Shown here: positions 1,504-47,133 of the stretch, piece after piece | How the letters are laid out: each line of letters opens with the position of its first letter | Position numbering within the stretch: position 1 is the stretch's first letter | The notes under the pieces: model-generated | Databases searched by the model: none | What the model was told of the DNA's origin: nothing | The model's input: the letters and a program-made list of their open reading frames with translations, nothing else | Position numbers and translations under genes: made by a program | IMG/VR virus record: IMGVR_UViG_3300005253_000017 | Location: 1-64,000 of that record | Strand: one strand, 5' to 3' | DNA: 64,000 nucleotides | Origin: a virus

Positions 1504-3654
1504 CTACTCCTCTGTTATTGTCCTCCGGGGCTTGCCCTCCTGGCCCACGCTTTTCCAGCTGCATCGGCAATTCGCTACTACAAAGCCCTTAGCAATGTAA
1601 CTCTCGTCTTCCTCTACCGAAAGATTGTATAGCGTCCTCGCCTTCTTAGGGACATAAGAATCCACAACAACAATCTCAAAGTCGCCAAACTGATAATCTC
1701 CGTCATGGTTCATCAATACCCTCTGAACCTTTGATATACATGCTCCAATGTCAGCCTCAATCTCGCTCCCAGTAAAGTGCAGAACCGTCCAGCCATGAGA
1801 TTCCAGTCTATCATCCCGTCGCTTTTCTTTGTCTTTATCTTGATGCCAATAAGCCCCGTCGCACTCAATAGCTATCATACGATCTACAATCGCATAGTCA
1901 ATCCAAAGACTATCAACCGGATGGTTATACTCGGCATCTATCGAAGCGTCGAGAAGGGCCTGGCCCATAACTTCCTCAATGTAAGTCTTTTCCCCGACTT
2001 TCTCTCTACTCTTCCTTGCCAAAATAGCATTGGGATGCTTCTCTGGATGCTTACGATAGTATTCTCGTTTGTCCCTAGAATTTGCCTCCCAATATTCGGC
2101 CGAATGTTTGGATTTATGTCTTGGATTCTTCTTGCCGAGCTTCCCTAGCCTTATCTTCTCTCTTATCTCAGGTCGCTTCGCAGGATTGTTTTCGCCGCTT
2201 TGCTCCGGACGAGGGCCTTGAAGGTGCCATGTGCCATCGGCAATACTTCTGCGCATCTTTTCATTGGCCTTCTTAGTCGTGGCAAACCTATCAATGGCAC
2301 CCGACTCATATTTGTTCAACATCATCTTAGTATGAGCTTTTCCAAAACACGACTTTCCACAAAACTTATTCTTTCCTAAAGGAAATAACCGACCACACTC
2401 CGAGCAAGGTTTTGCCATTGCTCTCACCCGATCTCCAACACAAATGTCCTTAGCATATTTCCACTTACCATTGACAATCATGGGATGATCTGCCGTTATC
2501 AAAATATTGTCCCATTTAACAGGCTTTTTTATCTTGACAGAGATAATCATAGGTTTCTGTTTTGGTGTTCGGTGTAGGTGAAGAACCTTCCGAAATCGAC
2601 CCTTGTGTGTTAATACCAAATCCCCAACAGCAACTTCACCTATCTTCTTCCATCCATCAGCAGTATAAACTGGTACATTATATGAAAGGAGACAATTTAC
2701 GTGGACGGGTATGATTCCCGCACCCTCGCCCCTACGGTACATATTCCCGTCCAAGTCCGCGCACTCCAGGCAGGCATCCCCCGAAGCCTCAAACTGTATC
2801 CAGTCTATCTCGGCAACCTTGTATGACTCCAACGTTCCCTCACTCATCGCCCTAGCAGTCTCAGTCCTTGCGATCATCTCGCCGCGGTATCGCAATTTCT
2901 TTCGCCCCTCCCGGCGAACCATGCGGTCTATGCGGGCCGCTCGCTTATCCGTCAAACCACCCCGCATCTGGGAGAACCTATCGGTCAGCTTGTTATGGTA
3001 TTTGTCCAACGCCCCCCTCTGAACATGGTTTAGCATAAAGTCCCGACGCTGCCGCAGTTCCCGGCCGATGGTGGGCATGGCCTTGCCCTCTGCGATACCT
3101 CGGGAGATAGTATCCCTAAGAGCAGCCTGGAAACTATTCGTCAATTCTGTCACCCGCTTGAACGTGTAATTACTAGCCCACTCCACCGCATGCCGATTGA
3201 CGACATTCCAGGTCGTCGATACTCGGGCAATCTGTCCCCCCACCTTCATGGCCTGCCCATATATCCGCATGTGGTGCTGGCCTATTCTTCTGTCTCCTGC
3301 CATTCGGATACAATTCCAATCAGCAACAGTAGCAACGACACCAGTAAAAGGAGCAGCCTTGTCAATTTCAATTCCCTTCTGTAAGTGGTCGGCGTATTCT
3401 CTTATTCTCAGTTCCGCCTGTCTCTTTTGCAACGGCGTCTTTGGAACCCATTCGTCATACTCCTGTATACTCTCCTTTATGGGCTCTTCACCCCTAATCA
3501 TCTGGTGCTCGATACCATAGAGGATGGCCCGTTCCGCCATACCCATCCAGGAGCGGACGGAGCGGTACATGGGGATAATGTTGCGGCGGTATATCCTAAC
3601 GAACCTCTTGTGGGTTCTGGAGGTTCCGAGCTTAGTTACCGTATGTTGATGCAT
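1504..3654 (-). CDS. MuF-type phage head morphogenesis protein interrupted by an intein
   Basis: This 716-residue reading frame encodes a head morphogenesis (SPP1 gp7/MuF) protein of about 341 residues plus an in-frame intein (residues 321-695). The extein has the long helical N terminus, ARTETARAMSEGT and CLECADLDGNMY of the family. The diagnostic H-x-x-CRCSW end is split by the intein as PVHVN then CRCSW. MuF proteins sit at the portal inside the head and can be ejected with the DNA. It lies downstream of portal, protease and ADP-ribosyltransferase genes in one leftward unit, and its start overlaps the upstream gene by 23 nt. The RBS at 3654 is weak. Confidence 0.9.
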   Translation of the reverse strand: MHQHTVTKLGTSRTHKRFVRIYRRNIIPMYRSVRSWMGMAERAILYGIEHQMIRGEEPIKESIQEYDEWVPKTPLQKRQAELRIREYADHLQKGIEIDKAAPFTGVVATVADWNCIRMAGDRRIGQHHMRIYGQAMKVGGQIARVSTTWNVVNRHAVEWASNYTFKRVTELTNSFQAALRDTISRGIAEGKAMPTIGRELRQRRDFMLNHVQRGALDKYHNKLTDRFSQMRGGLTDKRAARIDRMVRREGRKKLRYRGEMIARTETARAMSEGTLESYKVAEIDWIQFEASGDACLECADLDGNMYRRGEGAGIIPVHVNCLLSYNVPVYTADGWKKIGEVAVGDLVLTHKGRFRKVLHLHRTPKQKPMIISVKIKKPVKWDNILITADHPMIVNGKWKYAKDICVGDRVRAMAKPCSECGRLFPLGKNKFCGKSCFGKAHTKMMLNKYESGAIDRFATTKKANEKMRRSIADGTWHLQGPRPEQSGENNPAKRPEIREKIRLGKLGKKNPRHKSKHSAEYWEANSRDKREYYRKHPEKHPNAILARKSREKVGEKTYIEEVMGQALLDASIDAEYNHPVDSLWIDYAIVDRMIAIECDGAYWHQDKDKEKRRDDRLESHGWTVLHFTGSEIEADIGACISKVQRVLMNHDGDYQFGDFEIVVVDSYVPKKARTLYNLSVEEDESYIAKGFVVANCRCSWKSVGQEGKPRRTITEE
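1570..2694 (-). other. Intein with Vsr/DUF559-like homing endonuclease inside the MuF gene
   Basis: Residues 321-695 of the host frame (375 aa) form a canonical intein. Block A starts at Cys (CLLSYNVPVYTADGW), block B is ITADHPMIV with the TxxH motif, and blocks F/G are YNLSVEEDESYIA ending FVVAN, before Cys+1 of the extein. The penultimate residue is Ala instead of the usual His. Between the splicing halves lie a zinc ribbon (CSECG...FCGKSC) and a PD-(D/E)xK/Vsr-like nuclease region (IDYAIVDRMIAIECD, GAYWH, then HGWTVLHFTGSEI). Insertion is exactly before the first Cys of the conserved CRC motif. Splicing is expected but not shown. Confidence 0.9.
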
Positions 3655-8521: not shown

Positions 8522-8793
8522 TATTCTATCCTCCTAAAGTTTCCATTCTCCTTCGGCACTACCCACGACTCAAACACAGTACCGTCGTATTCCTCTATCG
8601 TCCTGGCCGGTTGATATTTAACTGCTCCCCGAAAACTGCTGTTGTGTATGATAAGAGGCACGGCCGGTCCCTTGTACTCGGCCTCATTGCCCTTCTTGGT
8701 ATAATGGCCTCCTGACCGCCGACACTTGCACCAACGCCACTCCCTAAGGAGGAGCAGGATGTCACAGCAATCTTTGCAGAAGAGAAGTTTCAT
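8521..8793 (-). CDS. Zinc-knuckle protein, paralogue of the 32352-32618 product
   Basis: The start at 8793 (GGGCGGAAGA site, ATGA overlap with the DUF488 gene) gives 90 residues beginning MKLLFCKDCCDILLLL. CxxC (FCKDC), WCKC, GHYT, an NSSF motif and a following QP match the 88-residue product at 32352-32618 on the other arm, so the two genes are paralogues. Probably zinc-binding; the function is unknown. Confidence 0.7.
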   Translation of the reverse strand: MKLLFCKDCCDILLLLREWRWCKCRRSGGHYTKKGNEAEYKGPAVPLIIHNSSFRGAVKYQPARTIEEYDGTVFESWVVPKENGNFRRIE

Positions 8794-9149
8794 TCTTCCG
8801 CCCACCCATCTATCATCGCCTTCAAGATATGACGATGACAATGGGGATTGCTTTCCTTCTCAAAACACAAGAGAGTAATGGTTTCTTGGTTAGCCGAACC
8901 CACCAAAGCATGAAGGTCTGGCCAACTATAGTATCGTATTTCCGATTCATACCGTCTCCCATACTCATACCAAGTCAAGTTCCCATTTTTCCAATCGTCT
9001 AGCAATCCCCATGTAGGAGCAAATTCACTACACCATTCAGCCTGAAGCTTTTCCTCCTTTATGCCCTTCGGCCAGCTTCGGGTTATGAGGATTCGCTTGC
9101 CATCCGATTTCGCTGGGGGATCAAAGAGGCATTTTGTCTTTACAGGCAT
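8790..9149 (-). CDS. DUF488 (YeaO-like) family protein
   Basis: The start at 9149 has GGGAGACGATA upstream and gives 119 residues. Family hallmarks are ILITRSWPKGIKEEKL (RxWPxGxKKE), WCSEFAPTWGLLDDW, WYEYGRRYESEI and ITLLCFEKESNPHCHRHIL (the Cys/His end of DUF488). Bacterial members are small nucleic-acid-associated or uncharacterised proteins. Its presence in a phage head operon is unusual. The family call is solid; the role is unknown. Confidence 0.8.
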   Translation of the reverse strand: MPVKTKCLFDPPAKSDGKRILITRSWPKGIKEEKLQAEWCSEFAPTWGLLDDWKNGNLTWYEYGRRYESEIRYYSWPDLHALVGSANQETITLLCFEKESNPHCHRHILKAMIDGWAEE

Positions 9150-9351
9150 TATCGTCTCCCACATTATGAACAATCACACATCGTAGAGCCATTTTCCTTA
9201 TCAATAGCTCAAGGCCTACAACCACGCCGTCTATAGCCTCATCCACACCATACACTGAAGCCTCGGCATCCGTAGGCTCGGTAGATAGGAATGCTATTCC
9301 TTCCGGTATGCTTGAGTCCTCTCTTATCCGTATTCCGAAGAAATCTTTCAT
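9121..9351 (-). CDS. Hypothetical protein, 76 aa
   Basis: ATG at 9351 has AATAGGA upstream; the gene overlaps the DUF488 gene by 29 nt. The product is acidic in the middle (TEPTDAEASVYGVDEAIDG) with a hydrophobic segment after it. Not recognised. Confidence 0.55.
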   Translation of the reverse strand: MKDFFGIRIREDSSIPEGIAFLSTEPTDAEASVYGVDEAIDGVVVGLELLIRKMALRCVIVHNVGDDNACKDKMPL

Positions 9352-9357
9352 TCCTAT

Positions 9358-9753
9358 TTACTCAGCCCCACACAGCAGACAATCGCCCGGACCATGGGCC
9401 TCATAACACTCAACTACGTCCTCTTCCCAGCTTTTGCCATAAAGGCGCTGGGCGTTACGATGCATAATAAAAGGAGCTTCAAATACCCTGGTTAACCAAA
9501 CTGACCTTGTCTTCTCGTACACCCAATTTACATACAGAAAACCGGGCACTAAACTACAGCCACCCACCATAATCCACACAGCAAACTTATCACCAGTCCC
9601 GATGAGCATCGCAATAAACAAAAGACATAGACCCAACCCCACAACCCCTTCCGAAATCCAAAACCAAACTTTTCTACGGGTATTTAATCTCTTCACTTCC
9701 TCTACTGCAACCCAAGGCTCTGCCGCCGCCATATCAACTCGCTTCCTCATCAC
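9358..9753 (-). CDS. Two-helix membrane protein with C-terminal CxxC, paralogue of 18468-18863
   Basis: This 131-residue protein begins MMRKRVDMAAAEPWVAVEEV, has two hydrophobic helices (about residues 35-75) and ends VECYEAHGPGDCLLCGAE. The product at 18468-18863 has the same length, the same AEPW start and the same GDCxLCGAE end, so the pair arose by duplication. The gene lies directly after portal; GTATAAT on this strand at 9781-9787 lies just upstream. Function unknown; the CxxC tail may bind metal. Confidence 0.75.
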   Translation of the reverse strand: MMRKRVDMAAAEPWVAVEEVKRLNTRRKVWFWISEGVVGLGLCLLFIAMLIGTGDKFAVWIMVGGCSLVPGFLYVNWVYEKTRSVWLTRVFEAPFIMHRNAQRLYGKSWEEDVVECYEAHGPGDCLLCGAE

Positions 9754-9759
9754 GTTCTC

Positions 9760-11199
9760 CTACAACTCTTCCTTCAGTCTATTATACACCTGATCCACGA
9801 TCTGTTCGCTATACCCTTCAAGCAATTCAGCAAAGTTACCTTGCATCTTTTCCAACTTTTGATTTATCTCATCCTCCCTGACCTCTAGCGATTCCTCCGT
9901 CTCTTCCAACCCCATCTCGACCAAACTAGACTTGATATAGAACTTGTTGCCGGGGTCTTCCTCAGTCTCAACGTCCACCTCGTAGCCCAGCTGTTCCCTC
10001 GCCTCGTTAGGCGTTATCATGCCGAACTCTATCTGAACGGCGAACCGCTTGGTCAGCTTATCGACATCTTCCTTGAGCAGAGGCGTGGTGTCAAAGTAAA
10101 TCTCCATCCCCTCGTGCTCAGGGAACTTGGTGAGATAGAAGTTGTTCAGAGCACCAGCAATCTTCGCCAGCTTGGGGATGATGGTGTCCCTAGCAAAGCT
10201 CTCAAGCTGCAGGGAGTAATTGTCATACTTGGCGTGCTCCAACAGCCCCACCTTGATCGGGGGAACGCCAAGCACGGCAAGTATTGCCTGCCGGTTCTCG
10301 GCCCGCCCCTTAAGGAAATCAATGTCCTTGGGATTAACAGATATGGTCTGCCACTTGAGGTTCTTTGACAGGATGAGAACTTTGCGACCCTTCCCGCCTA
10401 AAAACTCGCGGATATCTTCGCCTAGCTTCTCGACCTCGTTGGGAGTCATCCGCTGCTCAGTAGATATCAGACCCTCAGGGGTAACACCATGCAGGAAGAA
10501 ATCCAGGTTCCAAGCCGACATCTGCTTGTCCTGCTTGATTTCCTCTATCGCGGCCATCAGACTGCCCTGCCCCTCGAAGTCTTTCAACGGATGAAAATAA
10601 TGAAATGGCACAATTTGGTCAGGCCGAAACTTGTCCTTCTTGGCCCTATTCTTCTGCTGATATACATAATGATCGATACCATGTCCACTAGGCTTCTTAG
10701 GGACGGGCCGTAATCGGTATGAGGGGATAGTGTACAGCTCAACGGGCTGCTTCTTAATTATCTCCTGCTTACCGATAGTCGTAGTGGTTTTCTTCTGCAC
10801 TACCTCCCAGTAGCTATCCCCGGAGGTCTCTAGGTAGATGACCAAGGCCTCCATTAGGTCGTACCGGGTCTGGAGCTCGTTGGGCCTATTCAGTAGGTCT
10901 AAAGCAGGGTGTTCCTTCACATCCTCCTGGCCCCCCTTGCCAATTAGCCTCATCTTGATATCCAGCTGGGCTATAGTAGAGGCAATAGCAAATACCCCCG
11001 CATACGCCCATACGTGGTCAACGTATAGCTTAATCCACTGCTCGGCGTTGCTGGGGGTCATGAATGCGTCCCCAAACTCAAACAGTCCCCTAACCGAGTA
11101 CGCTGCGGCCTGTGACGCCTTAACCAATATGTCTGCGGGCATGTTCTCTAATCCCGCTGCCTCTAGCTCGCCTATGGTAGGCGGTAATTCTTTACTCAT
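9760..11199 (-). CDS. Phage portal protein (HK97 family)
   Basis: The 479-residue protein forms the dodecameric DNA channel at the capsid vertex. Family features are the N-terminal VYAYAGVFAIAST-like segment (DHVWAYAGVFAIASTIA), HPALDLLNRPNE, GDSYWEVV, a central stem region (GVTPEGLI, then LGEDIREFLGG), the VLGVPPIKVGL motif and the C-terminal crown IEFGMITPNEAREQLG. Length and order are normal. The acidic coiled C terminus (about 430-479) may contact internal proteins. It is upstream of protease and MuF, as in many siphophages. Confidence 0.95.
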   Translation of the reverse strand: MSKELPPTIGELEAAGLENMPADILVKASQAAAYSVRGLFEFGDAFMTPSNAEQWIKLYVDHVWAYAGVFAIASTIAQLDIKMRLIGKGGQEDVKEHPALDLLNRPNELQTRYDLMEALVIYLETSGDSYWEVVQKKTTTTIGKQEIIKKQPVELYTIPSYRLRPVPKKPSGHGIDHYVYQQKNRAKKDKFRPDQIVPFHYFHPLKDFEGQGSLMAAIEEIKQDKQMSAWNLDFFLHGVTPEGLISTEQRMTPNEVEKLGEDIREFLGGKGRKVLILSKNLKWQTISVNPKDIDFLKGRAENRQAILAVLGVPPIKVGLLEHAKYDNYSLQLESFARDTIIPKLAKIAGALNNFYLTKFPEHEGMEIYFDTTPLLKEDVDKLTKRFAVQIEFGMITPNEAREQLGYEVDVETEEDPGNKFYIKSSLVEMGLEETEESLEVREDEINQKLEKMQGNFAELLEGYSEQIVDQVYNRLKEEL

Positions 11200-13050: not shown

Positions 13051-13448
13051 CCTTCTCCTTCATCTACCGGCTGTACAGGCTGACTCATTATATACCCCGC
13101 CCCAAGCAGGCCCAATAGAACATCGGTTATCAACAGCGAATACAGGATACAATAAGCATACTCGTTCCTCACCCCATCCAGGGTCTCATTGTCCGGCAAA
13201 CCAAAGGCTGTGCCTATTGCGTCCCACATCTTATCATTGCCATCCCGCCTTCTGCTCATCAGCATCCTTATCGTATCACACAGGGGTCCACCGGTCCCCT
13301 TAATGTCGTCCTCCTTAAGACCCTGATTGAGCCCCATGCTCCTTAGGAAGGTCCCCAGCCCGGCCAGGGACGAGTGCTTGGTGGCCATCATCTCCGTGGC
13401 CTGGTCAAACCAGCATAGGGCCTTTGTGAGGTTGTTGGTTTCAGTCAT
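13047..13448 (-). CDS. Hypothetical protein with C-terminal hydrophobic helix, 133 aa
   Basis: ATG at 13448 overlaps the HNH gene end, and a coding-strand GTATAAT (13454-13460) sits just upstream. The N-terminal 95 residues are helical and soluble; residues about 98-120 (YCILYSLLITDVLLGLLGAG) form one membrane helix. Not recognised. Confidence 0.6.
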   Translation of the reverse strand: MTETNNLTKALCWFDQATEMMATKHSSLAGLGTFLRSMGLNQGLKEDDIKGTGGPLCDTIRMLMSRRRDGNDKMWDAIGTAFGLPDNETLDGVRNEYAYCILYSLLITDVLLGLLGAGYIMSQPVQPVDEGEG

Positions 13449-14281
13449 ATTCTATTATACACTCCTGACTCCACGCTATCGACCATCGTCACCAACACAT
13501 CGGGATTGTCTTCACTTAGGAAGCTCGCCCATCCACCCCCGGGCAGTTCGCCCCTTGTTATGGCGGAGAATAGGGGGGAGAGGGCTTGGGTCATGCCTCT
13601 CCTATTAAGCCTCATATGACAGGCGGTACAAAAGGTAATGAGATTGCTTAACCTTACGTTTACCTTTTCCTCATCAATATGATGAACGGTCAACTTTCTT
13701 GAATTTCCAATTTTTGTTCGGTGTGCTATCGAAGAGATGCCGCAAATCTGGCATTTGTGGCCGTCTCGCTTTCGAACAATTTCTCTAAGTTCCGGCGTCC
13801 ATTCGAGAGGATAAGATTCTGAAGAAGCCCCGCCTCTCCAACTCGGGTTCCTTTCCCCGGATTGGTTTTTACTCTGCTTCAATCGAAGCTCTGGGTGTTT
13901 TCTAAACGTTTCTCTACGTTTCTCAAGTTGCTTACGTGCAAGTTCAGGATTTTTGTTATAAATCTCCTTTAATGCCTCACTTTTTCTAGTTGCAAGAGTA
14001 GGATCATTGACGTGAGCTCGTTTAGCAGACTCACGCATTTTGAGCCTTTCTTTCGGATTTTTATAACGCTTCACTTGCCCTTTGTGCTTTCTTCCCCTAG
14101 TCTTCTGACAGTTAAATTCAACTTTCGGATAAAGTCTTTTCAGTTGGCTTACTGTCAAATGGTGTTTTTTTAGGTGTGTAGGAACTATTCCCTTAAATCT
14201 TTTCCCGCAACCGGGAACCGGACAAACAACATAGTCAATCCCCTCATATTCTTCCGTCCCATCAAAGAAAGGCTTAATCAT
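13445..14281 (-). CDS. HNH homing endonuclease with MucR-like zinc finger and NUMOD repeats
   Basis: The 278-residue free-standing endonuclease has an N-terminal MucR-like zinc finger (VCPVPGCGKRF...HLKKHHLTV), basic KxPE-type NUMOD repeats (residues about 70-150, e.g. NPELARKQLEKRRETF) and a C-terminal HNH centre (CQICG, LTVHHIDEEKVN, LSNLITFCTACH). It sits directly after the large terminase gene, a common place for intron-less homing genes. The same architecture appears at 37092-38195. The C-terminal 45 residues after HNH are unassigned. Confidence 0.85.
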   Translation of the reverse strand: MIKPFFDGTEEYEGIDYVVCPVPGCGKRFKGIVPTHLKKHHLTVSQLKRLYPKVEFNCQKTRGRKHKGQVKRYKNPKERLKMRESAKRAHVNDPTLATRKSEALKEIYNKNPELARKQLEKRRETFRKHPELRLKQSKNQSGERNPSWRGGASSESYPLEWTPELREIVRKRDGHKCQICGISSIAHRTKIGNSRKLTVHHIDEEKVNVRLSNLITFCTACHMRLNRRGMTQALSPLFSAITRGELPGGGWASFLSEDNPDVLVTMVDSVESGVYNRI

Positions 14282-15615
14282 TATTCACCCACCAATGCAC
14301 TAATCGTATAACCAAACCCCGATCCTGCGAAACAATATGCAAAACTATCAGCATAGTCCGGGCTGTGTCCCAGCCTCTCTGTGATTTTATCCTTTTTTTC
14401 AATTTGCACTGTTCGCTCTGTAGTACTCCTATGAAATTTGATGACACCAAGTTCATTGATGATTTTACTATCATTGGGTAGACTTATCTTTCCGACCTCT
14501 AACAATTCTCTCAACTCAAAGTATATCTCAGTCCGGTAATTGAAAAATCTGTCATCATTACTCTTTGCTCCCCCTATTATGTATTCGATAGGTAGCCCCA
14601 TGGCCGCGAGATGATCGGCGATGGGTTTGCCAAGTCCAATCGCGTCGATTTTAATTAGAGAGGGAGCATATTTATCTGCCAAGTGCTGGATTAACGCTAC
14701 TAAGTCCATCGTATCCTTACTACCAGACGTACCTACAACAGTTCCTCTCATACCCTCCCTCATCGTAATGACACTCAAGTCTCCTCCAGCGCCGACGTCC
14801 ACGCCAAACTCAACGGGTAAACCAGGTTCCGTTTCCCGCTTAGCAGCAGCTATTAACCAATCTGCAGGTAAAACAGCCTCAAAATCGACAAGCGATTCCC
14901 AGTCGCCATCTACAAATTTCCGCTCCCATCCAGGAATATGAGCAAACTGTATACGCAGCATATTTTCATAATCCTTTGCTACATGAGGATTGTCAGTTAC
15001 CTTGCTCTGAATGAACTCATGGTCTGGTCTTGATTCGTCGATCCACCGTTGTTTCACCCAACCCAAAGACGGATTACTGGTGCCAGCAATTCGGGCCGGG
15101 GGAAACTCGATTTTACCGGTTAAGACATTCTTTGCCTTTATCCGCATGATACGTGTTGAGAGAAACGTAAAAGCGTCTTCGGGCATGTCGGTAACTTCAT
15201 CCACGAACAGCTCGCTGAGTTCCAAAGACCGCAAAATTGAGAAGGGATCGCCAGAGGCCGACGAGCTAGGTTTGAGTCCCCCATACCTAAGCGTACTGCC
15301 ATTGTAGAACTCTATCAATCGATTAGACTGATTATGCTCCTTCACGAACTTCCCCGGACTACCAGAATCGGGATCGTCGATTCCTAAAATCCACTTCTTC
15401 ATCGTCTCATAGGTAGTCCCAGTAAAGGCGTGATTCTCCCATCTGAATATCCCCACTTTGTTCCCCGCCCAATAAAGACAATGACGAAGTGCGTCATTAC
15501 AAATCCAGACTGACTTGCCCCCTGCTGTTGCCCCCCCATAGAGAATGTACTTAGCCCTTGAATTATGAGCGATGAGCTGCCTAGCCGTCGGGATGTACTT
15601 AAGCTCTACCTCCAT
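14281..15615 (-). CDS. terL: Terminase large subunit
   Basis: The 444-residue DNA-packaging motor has an N-terminal ATPase with Walker A YGGATAGGKS (residues 26-35), Walker B ELFVDEV and the coupling motif ...AGTSNP. The C-terminal RNase H-like nuclease has acidic residues in FGVDVGAGGD, IKIDAIGLGKPIADHL and HSPDYADSFAY. Length is normal for this class. It starts at ATG 15615 with GGAGG directly upstream and a TTTACA-17-TATAAT promoter overlapping the leader, so the mRNA leader should be only a few nucleotides. The HNH gene follows immediately. Confidence 0.97.
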   Translation of the reverse strand: MEVELKYIPTARQLIAHNSRAKYILYGGATAGGKSVWICNDALRHCLYWAGNKVGIFRWENHAFTGTTYETMKKWILGIDDPDSGSPGKFVKEHNQSNRLIEFYNGSTLRYGGLKPSSSASGDPFSILRSLELSELFVDEVTDMPEDAFTFLSTRIMRIKAKNVLTGKIEFPPARIAGTSNPSLGWVKQRWIDESRPDHEFIQSKVTDNPHVAKDYENMLRIQFAHIPGWERKFVDGDWESLVDFEAVLPADWLIAAAKRETEPGLPVEFGVDVGAGGDLSVITMREGMRGTVVGTSGSKDTMDLVALIQHLADKYAPSLIKIDAIGLGKPIADHLAAMGLPIEYIIGGAKSNDDRFFNYRTEIYFELRELLEVGKISLPNDSKIINELGVIKFHRSTTERTVQIEKKDKITERLGHSPDYADSFAYCFAGSGFGYTISALVGE

Positions 15616-16313: not shown

Positions 16314-16487
16314 CTATCCAGTTAGCTCAATTATTGACCACGCTACAACACAACCAAACATTGCCATAATAATGACATGCCCCATTAGAAGTTCCCTTGA
16401 ACCCTCACCAGAGCCCCAACGGAAATAAAGCCAAGGAGTCGCCACGATCCCTAGCAGACCTACTATCAATACCATTAACCATACCAT
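16314..16487 (-). CDS. Small two-helix membrane protein, 57 aa
   Basis: The start at 16487 is chosen because AGGAGATAGGAAA precedes it; an upstream in-frame ATG lies within the next gene. Two hydrophobic helices (VWLMVLIVGLLGIVATPW and VIIMAMFGCVVAWSIIEL) are visible. Unknown function. Confidence 0.6.
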   Translation of the reverse strand: MVWLMVLIVGLLGIVATPWLYFRWGSGEGSRELLMGHVIIMAMFGCVVAWSIIELTG

Positions 16488-16491
16488 TTTC

Positions 16492-17649
16492 CTATCTCCT
16501 ACATGACAGAACGAAAGCTGTTCTATGCTGCATAGCAGCCAATACCGAGGATTCATTTACGACTTTCCACTGTCTCTGGTCCCTCGGCGGATTGTCACCA
16601 ATAATTTCCACCACCACCATAATGTGTCTTGTCTTAGGTGGGTCAGCATCCATGAGCCGGGGGGTCACATAACACCGGGCCTCATCTTCTGGCAGTCCCA
16701 CTATCCTGGCATACCTCGTAGCCCCCTTCCCACTCGCCAGTACGACATATCCGCCCAGCTTCATGAACCGGAGATTCACCCCCAAATTTCCTATTGCCGA
16801 CCTATCGGGGTCTCGCCGATCATTCCTGATATGAGCATCGGGTATCCTGACCACCCCAATAGTATTCCCAGCTTCCCGAGAATAGGACAGGGCGATGAGC
16901 TGATGGCGATCAGGCCGCTCCTCTCTGCCAAGCAAAACAAATCCCCTTATCTTTGGGGGGAGGCCACGGATGTAATGCTGTGAATTTCTGCCCAGATATT
17001 CCTCTGTCATTTCGTCGATAAGGACACTTAGCGGGGGCGGATAGTGCCCCGGATTGTTGGAATAATGAAACTGAAATTCAAGGGCGTCCCTCGCTTCAAA
17101 GGAACACCCCCAAGCCTTGCATATCCTGGGCCATTTATCAGCCTCCTTCATCCTTCCTAGGGTATCCCAGTTTCCTAGTACAACTTCCCCTAGTACCAAC
17201 CCATTCTCGCTTATCATCATACCCACAGAATCGTTATAGGACTTCTCGTTCTCTTTTATAGCGGCTACGAAAACAGAGGCAGCCATGGAAAGCCCGACAC
17301 CCAATATACCAAGAGCGATAAGAACCTCAATTAACGTAAATCCTCTCGGTTTCTTTTCTCCTTTTATGGAGGCAGTTCTCCATTTCTCCTTCGCCTCTTC
17401 CATGGCCTTCCTATGGACATCTATCTCTTCCAAGTACTCATCCCTGATAGCCCGACACTCATGACAGTACCCCTCCCAATTCGTTTCCAATTGACCCGAA
17501 TACCAACCGCTATGGCATTCATTACAGGCAAACCTACCACACACACCGCAGCGAACGAAGAAGCCCCTTAAGTCAAGATGGTCCCCACACCAATCACAGT
17601 AGTACCGTTCTACTGTCTTGCTGACTGTCTCTTTAACACACGCCATCAC
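16492..17649 (-). CDS. Zinc-finger protein fused to a prepilin-like (type IV pilin/T2SS) domain
   Basis: The 385-residue product starts with a treble zinc region (C18/C21, C34/C37, C42/C45/H46, C62/C65), then a charged helix. Residues 99-120 match a class III signal: KKPRG, cleavage site G103/F104, Glu at +5 and FTLIEVLIALGILGVG, continued by the usual pilin helix (AASVFVAAIKENE). A 250-residue beta-rich body follows. In normal prepilins the leader is short. An internal ATG at residue 83 with AGGAAGG upstream would give a 21-residue leader, so a separate prepilin could be made. I know of no standard phage role. Confidence 0.75.
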   Translation of the reverse strand: MMACVKETVSKTVERYYCDWCGDHLDLRGFFVRCGVCGRFACNECHSGWYSGQLETNWEGYCHECRAIRDEYLEEIDVHRKAMEEAKEKWRTASIKGEKKPRGFTLIEVLIALGILGVGLSMAASVFVAAIKENEKSYNDSVGMMISENGLVLGEVVLGNWDTLGRMKEADKWPRICKAWGCSFEARDALEFQFHYSNNPGHYPPPLSVLIDEMTEEYLGRNSQHYIRGLPPKIRGFVLLGREERPDRHQLIALSYSREAGNTIGVVRIPDAHIRNDRRDPDRSAIGNLGVNLRFMKLGGYVVLASGKGATRYARIVGLPEDEARCYVTPRLMDADPPKTRHIMVVVEIIGDNPPRDQRQWKVVNESSVLAAMQHRTAFVLSCRR

Positions 17650-17851
17650 TTCTCTCCTCAGTCATTTTAATAAGCAATAACATGAGTGTGCCCGTATCTA
17701 AAGAATACTTAACCTGATTATCGCTTAATAGTTCGCATTCGAGTAACCGTGAGACAGAACCAAGAGTATGACCATCCCCGGCATTCTCGGCAGTAAAATG
17801 GAGCTTACCGCAGGCATCACTATCAAAGACACGCTCATATTCAATCTTCAT
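17633..17851 (-). CDS. Hypothetical protein, 72 aa
   Basis: ATG at 17851 has AAGGAGAGAAG upstream and overlaps the previous stop; the gene overlaps the zinc-finger/prepilin gene by 17 nt. The product is beta-rich then helical (TLMLLLIKMTEE). Not recognised. Confidence 0.6.
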   Translation of the reverse strand: MKIEYERVFDSDACGKLHFTAENAGDGHTLGSVSRLLECELLSDNQVKYSLDTGTLMLLLIKMTEERSDGVC

Positions 17852-18405
17852 CTCTTCTCTCCTTCAAAATCATCGGTCCAATCGGATTCCTTTTCCTCAA
17901 TCAGCTTCTGCTCTATTATACCCCCCTCAATTACCTGTGGCAAAGGCAAAGGCATTCCGGGGGCGTAAATGATGACTTTCGTGCCTCCCTGCTCCTGGCC
18001 TCCTCCCACCTCTCTCTCTACCCTGGCAACGGCTATCGCGGCTTCCCTTTTGGCACCTATCTCCAATACTGTTTTCATGGAATCGAGCATCATCTCGGCA
18101 TAGGCCGGACCCTTGTCCATGAACGCCGCGATTCCTTTCGCCATGTCCCTGTTATCCTTGCCCCCACACTGGAGAATATAGGTCATAAATCCCTCAATGA
18201 TATCCTTGTTGACCTTGTTCCCACTACCCTTCGGTCGCCCGGCTCCCGGATTCTTGTTTTCCTCCGGGGGCTTCTTCTGATATTTGGATTTCGGGGGACG
18301 GTGTTCCGGGAATTCTCGATAGTGCTTTGCGAATCCCGGCCCCGAAGTGGCCATGAATTTGCATCCCTTGAACTTGCATTCCAACGGCCACTTATTGTTT
18401 GGCAT
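17848..18405 (-). CDS. Putative terminase small subunit with C2H2 finger
   Basis: The 185-residue protein begins with a C2H2-like finger (CKFKGCKFM...FAKHYREFPEH), then a basic AT-hook-like AGRPKGSGNKVNKD, a helical middle and a C-terminal VIIYAPGMPLPLPQV segment. GRPKGS-type linkers followed by helices are frequent in small terminase subunits, and it is encoded 2.2 kb upstream of the large subunit. A transcription regulator is the alternative. A coding-strand GTATAAT lies at 17915-17921. Confidence 0.5.
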   Translation of the reverse strand: MPNNKWPLECKFKGCKFMATSGPGFAKHYREFPEHRPPKSKYQKKPPEENKNPGAGRPKGSGNKVNKDIIEGFMTYILQCGGKDNRDMAKGIAAFMDKGPAYAEMMLDSMKTVLEIGAKREAAIAVARVEREVGGGQEQGGTKVIIYAPGMPLPLPQVIEGGIIEQKLIEEKESDWTDDFEGEKR

Positions 18406-18467
18406 CGTTTTCCTCTTTCTTTGTCTCGGGCGTGTCCTCTACGCTCTGGTTGTCTTATTTATTCTCT

Positions 18468-18863
18468 TTACTCCGCACCACAAAGCGGGCAGTCGCCCCC
18501 CATGTGGGATTCGTAACACTCAACACTAGCCGCCATCCAATCCTCTCCGTAACACCGCATGGCATTATTTATAATGCGATAAGGTGTCCGAAACACTCGC
18601 CCTGACCACACTTTTGCCGCCCTCTCGTAAGTAAAGTGCAGCCACATCGCGGGCATACCAAGAGCAAGCGCCCCCACGAAAACGCCATAAGCAAGTTGCT
18701 CCGGCACACCGAAGGCGACACCCACCCCTACGAAACAAAGGCCAAGGATCATCATCGCGATATGAAACCAAGCCCACCGTTTCTGCCGTAGACGGAGCCT
18801 CGACACTTCCCTTGCCGCAATCCACGGTTCAGCTTCCTCTATATCAACTTGCCTACGCTTCAT
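18468..18863 (-). CDS. Two-helix membrane protein with C-terminal CxxC, paralogue of 9358-9753
   Basis: The start at 18863 (GGAGAAGGAGAAG upstream) gives 131 residues, exactly the length of the paralogue. Shared features are KRRQVDIEEAEPW, two hydrophobic helices, GRVFRTPYRIINNAMRCYG and the ending GGDCPLCGAE. Function unknown. The 62 nt between its stop and the next gene show no signal. Confidence 0.75.
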   Translation of the reverse strand: MKRRQVDIEEAEPWIAAREVSRLRLRQKRWAWFHIAMMILGLCFVGVGVAFGVPEQLAYGVFVGALALGMPAMWLHFTYERAAKVWSGRVFRTPYRIINNAMRCYGEDWMAASVECYESHMGGDCPLCGAE

Positions 18864-19164
18864 CGCTCTTCTCCTTCTCCGCCATGCTGCGGAGGTCTGC
18901 ATCACATTCGTCAGCCTCGCGTTTGAGGTCATAAATTACACTGTCTAAGCCCCGCGAGTGAGGCGGCGGCTGTATCGAGTTGAGTTTTTGCACCGCCCGC
19001 CTCAGCGCATCCTTCCTCGCGGTAGCAAGCTGCTCGCGGAAGTCTTCGATCAACTCTGCCGATTCGGTGTATACCCGCTCGTCCAGGGCAAGGTGCTCGT
19101 CATGCGCCCGCGCAGCACGCACGCGCAGGTATTTCGGTAGGTCAAGTTTCTTAGCCTTCGCCAT
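18853..19164 (-). CDS. Helical hypothetical protein, 103 aa
   Basis: ATG at 19164 is followed by a basic, wholly helical protein (LPKYLRVRAARAHDEHL, then REQLATARKDALRRAVQKL) likely to form a coiled coil. From here to 20159 the DNA is clearly richer in G+C than the neighbouring genes. Not recognised. Confidence 0.6.
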   Translation of the reverse strand: MAKAKKLDLPKYLRVRAARAHDEHLALDERVYTESAELIEDFREQLATARKDALRRAVQKLNSIQPPPHSRGLDSVIYDLKREADECDADLRSMAEKEKSDEA

Positions 19165-19546
19165 CGTCTTGCTCCTGCATAGCCGCGATAAACGCCTTGG
19201 TGATTGCCATCGCGGGGGTCTTTCCCCCTACAGCTTTTTTCCGATCAGGCCACAACCCTGCCCAGTACCGCCTGTTCCCAGCGGGGCCATATTTGGTCAA
19301 CTGCCATTGCGGGAACGTCTCCATGAGTGCGAACGCCGCCTCGATGGAGGTGGTGTAGGAAGGGACAATATCCGTTCGGCCCGCAATTCCCGGTTCCTTA
19401 GCCGGGTTCTGTCCAAACCAATGCCCAAGTTTCGGGCGTTCGTGAACAGCTATCCAGCCCGCTTGCCCCGCAGCCCACGCGTTCAGACAACCATCGTCAA
19501 CGCTATGCTCGCCGAGGGGGCGATTGCAGTGGGGGCAGGGGTTCAT
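19151..19546 (-). CDS. Phage ABA-sandwich domain protein
   Basis: The 131-residue protein has an N-terminal zinc knuckle (CPHCNRPLGEH) and then DIVPSYTTSIEAAFALMETF, WQLTKYG, and TPAMAITKAFIAAM, which match the small phage ABA-sandwich family as I remember it. Members are found in many phages and have no known biochemical role. Confidence 0.7.
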   Translation of the reverse strand: MNPCPHCNRPLGEHSVDDGCLNAWAAGQAGWIAVHERPKLGHWFGQNPAKEPGIAGRTDIVPSYTTSIEAAFALMETFPQWQLTKYGPAGNRRYWAGLWPDRKKAVGGKTPAMAITKAFIAAMQEQDDGEG

Positions 19547-19785
19547 GGCTTCTCCTCAAAAAACCAGTGGAGAATCGCGGGCGGGAGACATAGGAGGACA
19601 GCCACCAACACACCAGGGCCAAGCGTTAGACTCCACGCGAACCACTCCCATTTGACGCACGACGAGGTCGGCTCATCCCCAGGCCGACCACCCATTGCCC
19701 AAATGCCCCGGCTGATCGGATACGCAATCAAGCCGCATAGCACCCAGCCCGCAAAGAAACACAGTAGGACGGCCCAGTCCATCAC
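19543..19785 (-). CDS. Membrane protein, 80 aa
   Basis: ATG at 19785 (a second ATG follows) overlaps the previous gene by 4 nt. Two hydrophobic helices (VLLCFFAGWVLCGLIAYP and SLTLGPGVLVAVLLCLP) are separated by a loop with a single Cys. Not recognised. Confidence 0.6.
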   Translation of the reverse strand: MMDWAVLLCFFAGWVLCGLIAYPISRGIWAMGGRPGDEPTSSCVKWEWFAWSLTLGPGVLVAVLLCLPPAILHWFFEEKP

Positions 19786-20159
19786 CCACCCTCCTTACGC
19801 CCCGGCGGGGTAGCGAGGGCATCAGGAATAAACATCCCACTCCCAATATCCGCCCCTAGGCAGTTCCCGCAGCGATCTGCTTCGTCATCGAGCCCCGTAG
19901 GATCGTAGACGACGGTTTCTCTTGCGGTATCTGCCACCCCACACTCAGGACACCGATACAGCCTGATTCCGCCCTTCTCCAACTCCTTCACCCGCTCCCG
20001 CAGCGTATCGTTCTCCTCGCGGGCGGCGGTGAGCTGGTTATCCTTACAATCACGGCCACCTATCCCATGCAATCTTTGACACTCATGTTTTTTATCCCCA
20101 ACCCAATATTCCGATTTCCATTCCATCGCATGACCACAGTCCCGGCATTTCTCATTCAT
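19782..20159 (-). CDS. Double zinc-ribbon protein with coiled coil, 125 aa
   Basis: An N-terminal knuckle CRDCGHAMEW, a coiled coil (REENDTLRERVKELEKG) and a C-terminal ribbon CPECG...CGNCLG are visible. It opens a high-G+C block of four genes after a 204-nt gap. Possibly an adaptor or nucleic-acid binder. Not assigned. Confidence 0.6.
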   Translation of the reverse strand: MNEKCRDCGHAMEWKSEYWVGDKKHECQRLHGIGGRDCKDNQLTAAREENDTLRERVKELEKGGIRLYRCPECGVADTARETVVYDPTGLDDEADRCGNCLGADIGSGMFIPDALATPPGRKEGG

Positions 20160-20296
20160 TTCAAGTCTCCCTAAAATCGTTTGTAAGGCCCTGTCTCCAA
20201 AAACACGTGGTTCTACCTATTTGTCGTCCTAGCGTCGCTCACAGACGATCCTCAGCGTTCCTAAGACGTTTCACGAGCCTTTCCCTTATGCCTAAG

Positions 20297-20342
20297 CGGC
20301 AGGACGGGAGTCGAACCCGTCAGTAAGGAGCGACCTCACTGC
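20297..20342 (-). other. tRNA-like fragment with canonical T-arm
   Basis: On the leftward strand a perfect T-arm (stem ACGGG/CCCGT, loop TTCGACT with all B-box invariants) is preceded by a 4-5 bp hairpin with a 7-nt loop and enclosed by GGCAG/CTGCC. No D-arm or full 7-bp acceptor stem can be drawn, and no CCA is encoded. It may be a tRNA remnant, a copied tRNA 3' end used as an attachment site, or a tRNA mimic. The rest of the 20160-20363 gap shows nothing else. Confidence 0.35.
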
Positions 20343-20363
20343 CTTTCTGTCGCCTGTTCATCC

Positions 20364-21362
20364 TCATACCACCAACGCCATTGCCTTATCGAACGCATCC
20401 TGCCGAATCTTCGCCGCCGTCCCGAACCACTCAGAATCAAGGCGACGTTCCGGCTTACTGCTATTCAGGTGACGATGAGTCAGAAACTCCGTCACGCTAT
20501 TATACGCTCCCCAGACCGTGCCTCTCACACCGTTCATCTGGGAGCCCTTACCACCACCCTCGAAGTTGTGGAGCAGCACGCCACGCTGTCTCGCTCGAAG
20601 GGTATTGTGCTTGGCCTCAGGATTATCCGGGAAGATATCACAGAAATATTCCTTGGCCCCGGTCAGCGTAATATCCTTCGCCGCCATGGCCCTATACTTC
20701 TCGCCTGTCTTGTCGAATACCTTATTGGCGATACCCAGAAGCTCCAGGGCATTGCTAAACTGCCATTTCAGGGAGCCAGCATGCCAGACTCGGGCCTGGA
20801 TTCCACCGCCCGACACAGCGGCCGTCAGCGTGTTGTTGCAGACTACCCTAATCGGCGTGAACATCATTCGGGCGGCCTCGGAACCGTCGTGAGTGGAGGT
20901 GACAAGCAGATACTTATCGGTAATGTCACCCTCAACTACCTCAATGCTGTTGGGCAATTTCACCAACACCCAGACTCTTCGGCCACCGTTGATGACGCCC
21001 GCCGTGTGGTAGATGGCGGCTCCCTCTTGGGTCAGCATCTCACCCACCTCAAACAACTCACGGTTCTGGATGGGAACATATCGGTCGGAAACGTCACCGA
21101 GGACATAGTCCTCCTCGCCGGGGTTCTTGTCTGACCTAACCACAGCATACCGGCCCGGAACCTTGAACACAGCCTGGCCAGACTTGCCCACGACGTACAT
21201 CTGGGACTTCTCGGCCAGCCAGTCCATGCCAGAGGCGATGATTGCCGCCTCCTTGTTGGGCACCTCGTCCAGGCCCACGCCCAGTCCATGCCAGGGCGGT
21301 CCATCCGCGTTGAGATACATCATACGGGCAACTCCATCGGTCCTGAAGTCTAACATGTGCAT
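20364..21362 (-). CDS. DUF932 / TIGR03299-type phage-plasmid protein
   Basis: The 332-residue protein shows the family landmarks PPWHGLGVGLDE near the N terminus, YAVVRSD, YVPIQNRELFEVG, GGRRVWVLVKLP, YLLVTSTHDGS and the central FTPIRVVCNNTL, then WGAYNSVTEFLTHR. Members are abundant in phages and plasmids; a role in DNA protection or anti-restriction has been suggested but is not proven. GTATAAT on the coding strand at 20499-20505 lies within the gene. Confidence 0.9.
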   Translation of the reverse strand: MHMLDFRTDGVARMMYLNADGPPWHGLGVGLDEVPNKEAAIIASGMDWLAEKSQMYVVGKSGQAVFKVPGRYAVVRSDKNPGEEDYVLGDVSDRYVPIQNRELFEVGEMLTQEGAAIYHTAGVINGGRRVWVLVKLPNSIEVVEGDITDKYLLVTSTHDGSEAARMMFTPIRVVCNNTLTAAVSGGGIQARVWHAGSLKWQFSNALELLGIANKVFDKTGEKYRAMAAKDITLTGAKEYFCDIFPDNPEAKHNTLRARQRGVLLHNFEGGGKGSQMNGVRGTVWGAYNSVTEFLTHRHLNSSKPERRLDSEWFGTAAKIRQDAFDKAMALVV

Positions 21363-37091: not shown

Positions 37092-38195
37092 ATGACACAG
37101 ATAGCGATAGAGGTTGAAAACATCGACTATGTGGTGTGCCGAGTGTGTGGTAGGGGATTTGAAATCCTATGCGACAACGGCCATTTGAAGATTCACGATA
37201 TGACCGTCACCCAGTATCGTGAAAAGTACCCTGGTGCTCCGACGATCTCTCAGAAATATCGAGAGAAGACAAGCGGTAAGAACCACTATGCTTGGAAAGG
37301 TAGAATGGGTAGGTGGATTCCAAGGTGGCGTGAAGGGATATTTTGGATTCAGTGCTTGGAGTGTGGTAAGCGAATGAAGAGGGTTGGTTATTCTCATTTG
37401 CGAATTCATGACATGACTCCCACTCAGTATCTAGAGAAACATCCGGGTGCGCCGACTTGTTGTCAAAAGAGTTTGGAGAACGTAAGTGGGAAAAATCATT
37501 GTCTTTGGAACAGCAGACGTAAAAAGGGGTTTATCGCCAGATGGCGTCGTGGCGAGTTCTGGGTAGAATGTCCGGTTCCCAGTTGTGAAGTAAAGTTGCG
37601 GGTGCTCAGTAAACATATGAATATCCATGGCATCAAAGGGGAACAAGTGAAGGAACTTTACCCCAGTGCTCAACTCGTGTGTCGGCGGAGTCATGAAATA
37701 AGAAGCGAGATAAAGATCGGACCGAACAACGGTATGTATGGACAGACCTATAAATGTCAAGAACAAACCAAAAAGAAGATAAGTGAGGCAAGAAAGCAAT
37801 GGTATCAAATACATTCGGAAGCGAACGTTGGTCCCAATAACCCGGCATGGAAAGGCGGTGTCTCCTTTGAACCTTACGGCCTCGATTGGACAGACCCTCT
37901 CAAGCAACTTATCCGCAATTCCGACGACAATATCTGCCAAATGTGTGGCAAGGTAAAAGAGGAAAATACACAAAGGTGTCAAGAACTCGATGTTCACCAT
38001 ATCGATTTTGTTAAGATGAACTGTGACCCCAGCAACCTAATCACACTCTGTCGTTCCTGTCATTTAACTGTCGATGAGGACGACCCTGAAATCCGCAAAG
38101 TCTTCTATGCGATAACCGCCGAGAGGGACAATACCTTGGCAGAACAGCATATACAAAACTATCGACCGGCCGTGTTGGCCAAGGCAATAGCATGA
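37092..38195 (+). CDS. HNH homing endonuclease with three MucR-like fingers
   Basis: The 367-residue protein has three repeats of a C-x2-C...H-x3-H finger followed by (T/K)xxQ(Y/V)xExYPGAP: VCRVCGRGF, QCLECGKRM and ECPVPSCEV. A NUMOD3-like SGKNHY/GPNNGMYG region and an HNH core (ICQMCGK, DVHHIDFVKMN, SNLITLCRSCH) follow. It shares architecture with the gene after terL. Probably a free-standing homing endonuclease between recA and the sbcC-like gene. Confidence 0.85.
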   Translation: MTQIAIEVENIDYVVCRVCGRGFEILCDNGHLKIHDMTVTQYREKYPGAPTISQKYREKTSGKNHYAWKGRMGRWIPRWREGIFWIQCLECGKRMKRVGYSHLRIHDMTPTQYLEKHPGAPTCCQKSLENVSGKNHCLWNSRRKKGFIARWRRGEFWVECPVPSCEVKLRVLSKHMNIHGIKGEQVKELYPSAQLVCRRSHEIRSEIKIGPNNGMYGQTYKCQEQTKKKISEARKQWYQIHSEANVGPNNPAWKGGVSFEPYGLDWTDPLKQLIRNSDDNICQMCGKVKEENTQRCQELDVHHIDFVKMNCDPSNLITLCRSCHLTVDEDDPEIRKVFYAITAERDNTLAEQHIQNYRPAVLAKAIA

Positions 38196-45281: not shown

Positions 45282-45835
45282 TTACCTCATCGGGTATCCT
45301 ATTTCCCTTAGAAGGATTCACCGAAGACGACGTGACGCTAGAGGACATCGCCTACCATCTATCTATGATAAGCAGATGGAACGGGGTAATACAAAAGCCG
45401 TTTTCCGTTCTGGAGCATTGTCTATACTGCGAGGAACTGGTGCGACATAGCTTTTATGGTGCATCCGTTACAACACGACTTTATGCTCTATTACACGATG
45501 CACACGAAGCATATACCGGAGATATCCATACCGCCCTCAAAAAGAAGTGCCCCTATATCGAGGAGTTTCAGCAACGGCTGGATATTGTCATTTACAAGAA
45601 ATTCGGTATCGAACCCCCCGATAAGCTGATTCTGCCTACAATTGAATGGGCGGACCGGAAGGCCAAGCTTGGAGAGGCATATCAATTCTTACCTCGTGGG
45701 GCGTACAAGGCAATTTTAGGCGATAAGAAACCCCCGGAACTGTTGCCTATCGGGTGCTCATATGGTGACAAACGAGAGAAGGCCCGACAGAGGTATACTA
45801 ACACATTGAAGGGGTTGCTTGGTGAGATTAAGTGA
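45278..45835 (+). CDS. HD-domain phosphohydrolase (YfbR-like)
   Basis: TTG at 45278 overlaps the previous stop (TTGA). The 185-residue protein has FSVLEHCLYCEEL (first His), the HD pair ALLHDAHEAYTGDIHTALK, and a later EWADRKAKLGEA (Asp). Such HD proteins dephosphorylate deoxynucleoside monophosphates; in phages they are part of nucleotide metabolism or modified-base pathways. Fits with the dCMP deaminase nearby. Confidence 0.8.
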   Translation: MITSSGILFPLEGFTEDDVTLEDIAYHLSMISRWNGVIQKPFSVLEHCLYCEELVRHSFYGASVTTRLYALLHDAHEAYTGDIHTALKKKCPYIEEFQQRLDIVIYKKFGIEPPDKLILPTIEWADRKAKLGEAYQFLPRGAYKAILGDKKPPELLPIGCSYGDKREKARQRYTNTLKGLLGEIK

Positions 45836-47133
45836 ACAAGAGTCTTCTTCTTCTCTGTCAAGAGGCTAAGGTTGAACCCCTTGGCTTGATGCATCTTGCG
45901 GCGGTATCGGAGGACGAGGGCTGGGATACGACAATTAAGCCAGTAGATTTCAATGAAGGATTTTATAGTGAGGATGTAGCATCTGATATTATAGGATTTT
46001 CTCTCTATACTGGAATTCACAAACGGGCATATCAATGGATGGGTCGTCTTCGTGAGATTGGCCGAAGAGTTATCGTTGGCGGTCCTCATGCATCCTACTT
46101 TCCTAAGGAATGTGCTGAGCACGCCGACGTGGTAGTGGTCGGAAGGGGACAGGAACCCCTGAGACAAATCCTTAGCGGGAATATGAAGTCAAAGATTATC
46201 TGTGGTAACAATACAGAGCCCCTATCAATACCGTCAAGGAAGGGATTCTACGCCAACTATCCAGATTATAAGGCAAGCCCCATCAAGTCGATGATGGCAA
46301 GTCTGGGGTGTCCCTATAAATGTAGCTATTGTTACAATAGCATGAAGCGGATATTTCCTCACCGGTCCCGCGACGTTGGCGACCTCCTAGTAGAACTGGA
46401 ACAACTGGAAAATCTGTCTCAGGAAACACAGCTTATCTACTTCCAGGATGATGTATTTGGCATGGACCTGACTTGGCTTCAGGAATTTGCCGAGCGATGG
46501 TCATTCCCCTATCATGCCCAGACACGTATCGAATTCCTAGACCCGCAGAAAGAATCCGCCCGCAAGAGGATAGCGTTATTGAAAAAGTCAGGATGTACCG
46601 GATTGACTGTGGCTATAGAGACGGCCAATGAGACAGTGCGCAAGGATGTTCTCGGTAGGACAATGACTAACGAAGCTTTCTTTCGGGCATTCGATTGGCT
46701 ATCTATGCGGAACTTCAAGGTAAGAACGGAACAGATGCTGGGATTGCCGACGCCCGATCCACTGGAGACGGACCTAGATACTCTAAAAATGAACGTGGAA
46801 CTAAGGAGAGAGACGGGTTTGCCGACAATGGCCTGGGCGTCGGTTTTCGTTCCCTACAAGGGCACAGAGATATGGCGATACTGTAAGGAGCACGGATACT
46901 ATAATGGGGAGAACGATGACGCTCCGGCGAGCTTCTTTGAGAAATCAGTATTGAATTTCTCCGATGACTGCAAGGACCGCATGAAGTGGTTAGCCGATAA
47001 TTTTCATCTTTTGGCATTGATTCCGAATGGCCACAAGGTAGCGAGACAAGCGGTGTATAATGATATGAAGGACTTGGCGAGTTTGACCAAGTATCACCTG
47101 TATGACTCGGAACTGTATGGAGTGAAGAAATGA
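45832..47133 (+). CDS. B12-binding-type radical SAM protein
   Basis: GTG at 45832 overlaps the previous stop. Residues 1-140 form a cobalamin-binding-like Rossmann domain (DIIGFSLYTG, RRVIVGGPHASYFP, DVVVVGRGQEPL). The radical SAM core follows with SLGCPYKCSYCYN (CxxxCxxC), then LIYFQDDVFGMD and EQMLGLPTPDP. Such enzymes methylate or rearrange unactivated carbons. No clear DxHxxG cobalamin motif is seen. It opens the glycan module, so a sugar or lipid substrate is plausible. Confidence 0.88.
   Translation: MNKSLLLLCQEAKVEPLGLMHLAAVSEDEGWDTTIKPVDFNEGFYSEDVASDIIGFSLYTGIHKRAYQWMGRLREIGRRVIVGGPHASYFPKECAEHADVVVVGRGQEPLRQILSGNMKSKIICGNNTEPLSIPSRKGFYANYPDYKASPIKSMMASLGCPYKCSYCYNSMKRIFPHRSRDVGDLLVELEQLENLSQETQLIYFQDDVFGMDLTWLQEFAERWSFPYHAQTRIEFLDPQKESARKRIALLKKSGCTGLTVAIETANETVRKDVLGRTMTNEAFFRAFDWLSMRNFKVRTEQMLGLPTPDPLETDLDTLKMNVELRRETGLPTMAWASVFVPYKGTEIWRYCKEHGYYNGENDDAPASFFEKSVLNFSDDCKDRMKWLADNFHLLALIPNGHKVARQAVYNDMKDLASLTKYHLYDSELYGVKK

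Follow-up and report, generated by a model that had tools for sequence, protein, structure and literature searches.

A (pre)pilin is defined by a leader ending in Gly or Ala and followed by 20–25 hydrophobic residues, usually with Glu at +5; the leader normally stays in the cytoplasm with the body on the far side of the inner membrane, long leaders are present in some prepilins, and filaments are initiated from a tip complex of minor pilins (PMC10191384). The phage proteins Tip, Aqs1 and PfsE are known to shut down type IV pili through binding of PilB or PilC (PMC8764522). Besides, class III signals are encoded by phages in the pilin-like PHROGs families phrog_11596, 13280, 10597 and 3433 ('pilin'). 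The protein analysed here, P0001, has such a signal in common with these families, but the match to them was confined to the signal helix region (E-values of 5.5e-4 to 0.17). Judged from its sequence, P0001 is very likely a planctomycete-type prepilin carried by a phage.

The window analysed is a stretch of 64,000 nucleotides and is part of a 103,840-base IMG/VR contig. Profile matches to a portal protein (9760–11199, minus strand; PF04860, E = 1.6e-64), a terminase large subunit (TerL; 14281–15615, minus strand; phrog_2, E = 1.1e-30), a tape measure protein and a head-tail adaptor identified the contig as belonging to a tailed phage, in agreement with the initial annotation, which had described the gene as phage-borne. 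The contig presumably also encodes polymerase-, clamp-, clamp-loader- and RecA-like proteins, as recognized by eye. TerL is located downstream of the prepilin gene (16492–17646, minus strand, stop codon included). On the other side, two genes upstream, a gene at 17848–18405 (minus strand) encodes a product with a GRPKGS motif and without any family match over the cut-off; on this motif only, we guess it to be the terminase small subunit, which would place the prepilin gene between the two terminase genes. A 72-aa gene (17633–17851, minus strand) overlaps the prepilin start by 14 bases, and a gene for a 57-aa membrane protein with the putative start MVWLMVL (16314–16487, minus strand; gtaggagataggaaaATGG) begins 4 bases past the prepilin stop. 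Elsewhere in the window, a Mu F-like head morphogenesis protein with an apparent intein containing a DUF559-type endonuclease (1504–3654), a DUF488 protein amid the head and packaging genes (8790–9173; PF22751, E = 1.9e-23) and two similar small membrane proteins with CLLCGAE and CPLCGAE at their C-termini (9358–9753 and 18468–18932) were found, all on the minus strand. The G+C content was locally up to 57% at 18000–21000, compared to about 49% elsewhere.

The minus-strand frame at 16492–17649 was shown to be open and intact, as previously listed. The GTG listed as its start was not retained: the likely start is the next codon, an ATG at 17646, which is found 7 bases after a GGAG Shine-Dalgarno motif (gaggagagaagtgATG). 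From this ATG, the coding part without the stop codon (16495–17646, minus strand) specifies 384 residues. The cleavage and methylation-type signal proposed in the initial annotation, KKPRG/FTLIEVLIALGILGVG (17275–17343, minus strand), has Gly-1 at residue 102 (17341–17343), Phe+1 at residue 103 (17338–17340), Glu+5 at residue 107 and a hydrophobic helix up to residue 124. It was matched by Pfam N_methyl (PF07963; E = 1.6e-8, 34 bits compared to a cut-off of 21; residues 100–123 of the GTG-started frame) and by TIGR02532 (E = 9.9e-8, over cut-off). Gly102, Phe103, Glu107 and the PF07963 match all agree with the (pre)pilin definition given above. No second GFTLIEV-type motif was found elsewhere in the 103.8-kb contig. 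With both models over their cut-offs and this motif being the only one of its type in the contig, the signal is not a chance occurrence. The nearest curated models were those of PilV (TIGR02523; 31.4 bits, cut-off 52.2) and GspI (TIGR01707; 22 bits, cut-off 44.35), neither cut-off being reached.

The mature pilin-family part comprises residues 103–384 (16495–17340, minus strand), of which residues 103–377 aligned with a prepilin family from Phycisphaerae. Residues 83–384 were searched against 397 genomes of the class to which the Phycisphaerales MAG G001 belongs, and 98 of these gave matches at E ≤ 1e-4 (best 1e-14), with identity reaching 59% over the signal helix and two matches extending to about residue 265. 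The bacterial relatives have about 210–270 residues past the cleavage site. A profile built from 18 of these Phycisphaerae prepilins gave 105 bits with residues 103–377. A body-only model was built from 15 members whose search matches did not go past query position 82, which limits circularity; it gave 23–24 bits with the phage body, compared to at most 6.6 bits for decoys (2,000 shuffled sequences and 202 other frames from the phage). The body aligned to the family end to end, and its reading frame runs on to the conserved S and T positions at the C-terminal end. Identity to eight Phycisphaerae members was 24–32%, and 16 of the 22 positions invariant among these eight were kept. Among well-conserved positions, 35 of 55 were kept in all (21 of 28 at the N-terminus and 14 of 27 in the body). 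The phage branch was long (2.35 changes per column); together with the 35 of 55 positions, this means that P0001 may have lost its function as a pilin.

When the body alone was searched as a single sequence against genomes of Planctomycetota (392) and Phycisphaerae (397), all matches were at chance level and none was a prepilin, which shows that a profile is needed to see the homology of the body. Smith-Waterman comparison of P0001 with 98 assorted prepilins likewise gave no signal in the body. Longer planctomycete prepilins (L076 and similar) had been tried as the family and were rejected, the early profile matching P0001 by the N-terminal part only. AF2 prediction of the mature part from a shallow alignment gave a pLDDT of 36.8, with a helix from residue 105, of which only the first ~20 residues were confident. 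Prediction of a second phage prepilin, L135 (see below), with P0001 as the second row of a shallow alignment gave a pLDDT of 33.7, only the N-terminal helix being confident.

Taken together, the profile evidence supports assignment of the C-terminal body to the prepilin family, as a minor prepilin of planctomycete PilV/GspI type; a pilin fold, with a globular head carried by a long α1 helix, is predicted from this homology. A non-pilin fold of the body had been named beforehand as evidence against a pseudopilin, and the body proved homologous to Phycisphaerae minor prepilins. The proposed relation to pseudopilins holds as regards the prepilin family, with the planctomycete PilV/GspI type as the relative rather than the proteobacterial GspH, GspI and GspJ proteins as such. 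At 17 of the 24 bacterial loci examined, three to four prepilin genes were present within 3 kb, as is typical of operons for minor pilins or pseudopilins. In the phage contig, neither a flanking prepilin gene nor another GFTLIEV-type motif was found. The Phycisphaerae minor prepilins (L105–L124) and P0001 share the class III signal, Glu+5, a full-length body and a common F..A....S.....G.....N.L core after the helix. P0001 differs from them by an added 102-residue zinc leader, a C2H2-like insert and a location outside a gene run.

The zinc region described previously ahead of the signal was confirmed as a zinc-type domain at residues 17–64 (17455–17598, minus strand) with four CxxC motifs at 17, 33, 41 and 61, all within the N-terminal 98 residues; Pfam zinc matches were weak and none was over the cut-off (Prok-RING_2, E = 0.011). 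The only relative found for this leader was a small stand-alone zinc protein from another viral contig (L160), which showed 50% identity to residues 22–49 (28 residues aligned) and had CNECHSGW in common with it. No significant similarity to the other zinc proteins of this phage was detected, no relative was found across 208 Phycisphaerae genomes, and no zinc leader on any other prepilin was met in the literature searched. In addition, a C2H2-like finger (C-x4-C-x12-H-x6-H) that had been overlooked in the initial annotation was found at residues 176–201 (17044–17121, minus strand), inserted into the body without a counterpart in the bacterial relatives. Its ligands and their spacing are identical to those of a finger at 18301–18378, the N-terminus of the 17848–18405 product. 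The local score between the two fingers was 83, compared to 67 for the best of 2,000 shuffles, and similarity at the DNA level is gone. Both the zinc leader and the finger are missing from the bacterial members examined, a distribution that would be explained by capture of a host gene and its subsequent alteration within this phage lineage, but not by sequences having been joined recently in assembly. Other C2H2-like motifs in the window were three repeats in an HNH-like protein (37092–38195, plus strand) and a similar finger ahead of an HNH domain (13445–14281).

A chimera of phage and host DNA formed during assembly had also been considered beforehand, and the metagenomic nature of the contig and the bacterial origin of the gene family would fit it. 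The finger common to the prepilin and the nearby phage gene argues against such a chimera. Besides, phage genes are tightly packed on both sides of the prepilin gene with the same strand and Shine-Dalgarno style, no prepilin genes flank it, and identity to any bacterial copy is only distant. An assembly chimera is thus highly improbable.

The internal Met suggested earlier as a start is present (17401–17403, minus strand; residue 82 from the ATG, 83 in the initial numbering). It is preceded by ataggaaggccATG, a plausible ribosome site in which aggaagg lies 3–9 bases 5′ of the codon, and a product started here would have a leader of 21 residues with a net charge of +3. The gene might therefore specify two products, a full-length anchored zinc protein and a short-leader prepilin started at Met82, which would be compatible with all other readings. 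Against this, aggaagg could be mere coding sequence, and there is no close relative for a conservation test; we regard the two-product arrangement as doubtful.

Single-protein searches revealed no close relatives of P0001 among IMG/VR viruses or GenBank phages. Scanning viral contigs with a profile detected the same prepilin family on the 109,228-base contig IMGVR_UViG_3300023210_000015 (L135), which is a phage by its portal gene. The L135 prepilin has 239 aa and gave 166 bits with the bacterial model over its full length. It differs from P0001 by a short leader, by lack of the zinc domain and finger, and by Ser at -1, a position stated to be Gly or Ala in prepilins (PMC10191384); its contig showed no match to the terminase of this phage. 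In the parts compared, the two contigs shared only a B12-binding/radical SAM gene and an endonuclease domain (E ≤ 1e-4); the former encodes the B12-binding radical SAM protein found at 45832–47133 (plus strand) in the window. Descent of both phage prepilins from one ancestor was neither supported nor rejected (AU p = 0.43).

A second planctomycete-type prepilin was found on the viral contigs L014 (8361–9806) and L045 (90–839), the two copies showing 34% identity over 307 columns; a Phycisphaerae relative (L130) showed 31% identity to the L045 prepilin. Phage-type methyltransferase genes were present near both copies, and no virion genes were seen near them. The L014 prepilin is extended in frame at its N-terminus by about 105 residues, which contain no cysteine cluster. 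On another viral contig (L020, 5463–5987), a SEC-C zinc motif is joined to a prepilin signal, both PF02810 and PF07963 being over cut-off. This protein resembles P0001 in that a zinc-binding stretch lies directly ahead of a class III signal in a phage, but the motif is of SEC-C type and the body is short and unrelated. Phage prepilins thus recur, with a zinc-type stretch just ahead of the signal in at least two cases, and a gene met repeatedly in unrelated phages is less likely to be an accidental passenger.

The prepilin family and, weakly, the terminase point to Phycisphaerae (Planctomycetota) as the most likely host. Terminase relatives in Phycisphaerae genomes showed 26–31% identity, not clearly better than those of known phages, and no prepilin of the P0001 family was present near them in the stretches examined. 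No phages of planctomycetes were named in the literature searched by phrase.

Neither a prepilin peptidase (PF01478, A24) nor an assembly ATPase (PF00437, T2SSE) was found in the contig, the control genomes being positive for both; host machinery would therefore be needed, and P0001 probably uses it. We propose that a tailed phage captured a minor prepilin of PilV/GspI type, probably from its Phycisphaerae host, and that the captured gene was reshaped by joining of a zinc-type domain in front and insertion into the body of the C2H2-like finger that it has in common with a nearby phage gene. P0001 would insert N-in via its hydrophobic segment, so that the zinc domain would face the cytoplasm and the body would lie beyond the inner membrane. 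Host prepilin peptidase would then cut after Gly102, or the bulky leader might block cutting so that P0001 would stay anchored; in either form it could enter or jam the minor-pilin tip complex of the host. Because assembly starts from this complex, small amounts of a decoy subunit could suffice. Host pili or the secretion pseudopilus would thereby be blocked or altered during infection, for instance to exclude superinfecting phages. For this reading as a whole, i.e., a captured and reshaped minor prepilin that enters or jams the tip complex and blocks or alters pili or the pseudopilus, we estimate a probability of roughly 0.45. That a host filament, whether of a type IV pilus or of type II secretion, is interfered with or remodelled is by itself put forward tentatively.

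The same protein might act at the membrane only, as a zinc-domain host-takeover or regulatory protein for which a captured prepilin provides the hold on the inner membrane, the pilin body drifting and the filament left untouched. The long leader, which has its own strong start, the finger inserted in the body, the long phage branch and the lower retention of well-conserved positions in the body (14 of 27) than at the N-terminus (21 of 28) would be expected of such an anchor. However, the body has retained its full length and its frame up to the conserved S and T, and the L135 phage keeps the body without a zinc leader; we consider a mere anchor rather unlikely. Replacement of a host minor pilin, with the filament kept or changed (e.g., so that a receptor, or a secretion activity of use for release or spread, is preserved), would agree with the conserved Glu+5 and family core and with the recurrence of the prepilin family across unrelated phages. 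The finger and zinc leader would be odd for a faithful substitute, and a filament function of P0001 is hypothetical, which makes such substitution less probable still than an anchor. A captured decoy that enters or jams the tip complex is the reading we prefer. A wider proposal, that minor prepilins were taken up by planctomycete phages more than once and became decoys poisoning or reprogramming host type IV filaments, with the zinc domain of P0001 as a plug or switch on processing, is speculative and on present evidence unlikely. P0001 provides a testable handle on planctomycete phages.

The effect proposed for P0001 resembles that of Tip, Aqs1 and PfsE, by which host pili are shut down against superinfection (PMC8764522), but these proteins are not pilins and bind PilB or PilC. 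The known phage control of type IV pili operates through small inhibitors of motor or platform proteins, whereas a phage-made pilin subunit with a zinc leader would, if the proposal is true, represent another route, acting on the filament itself.
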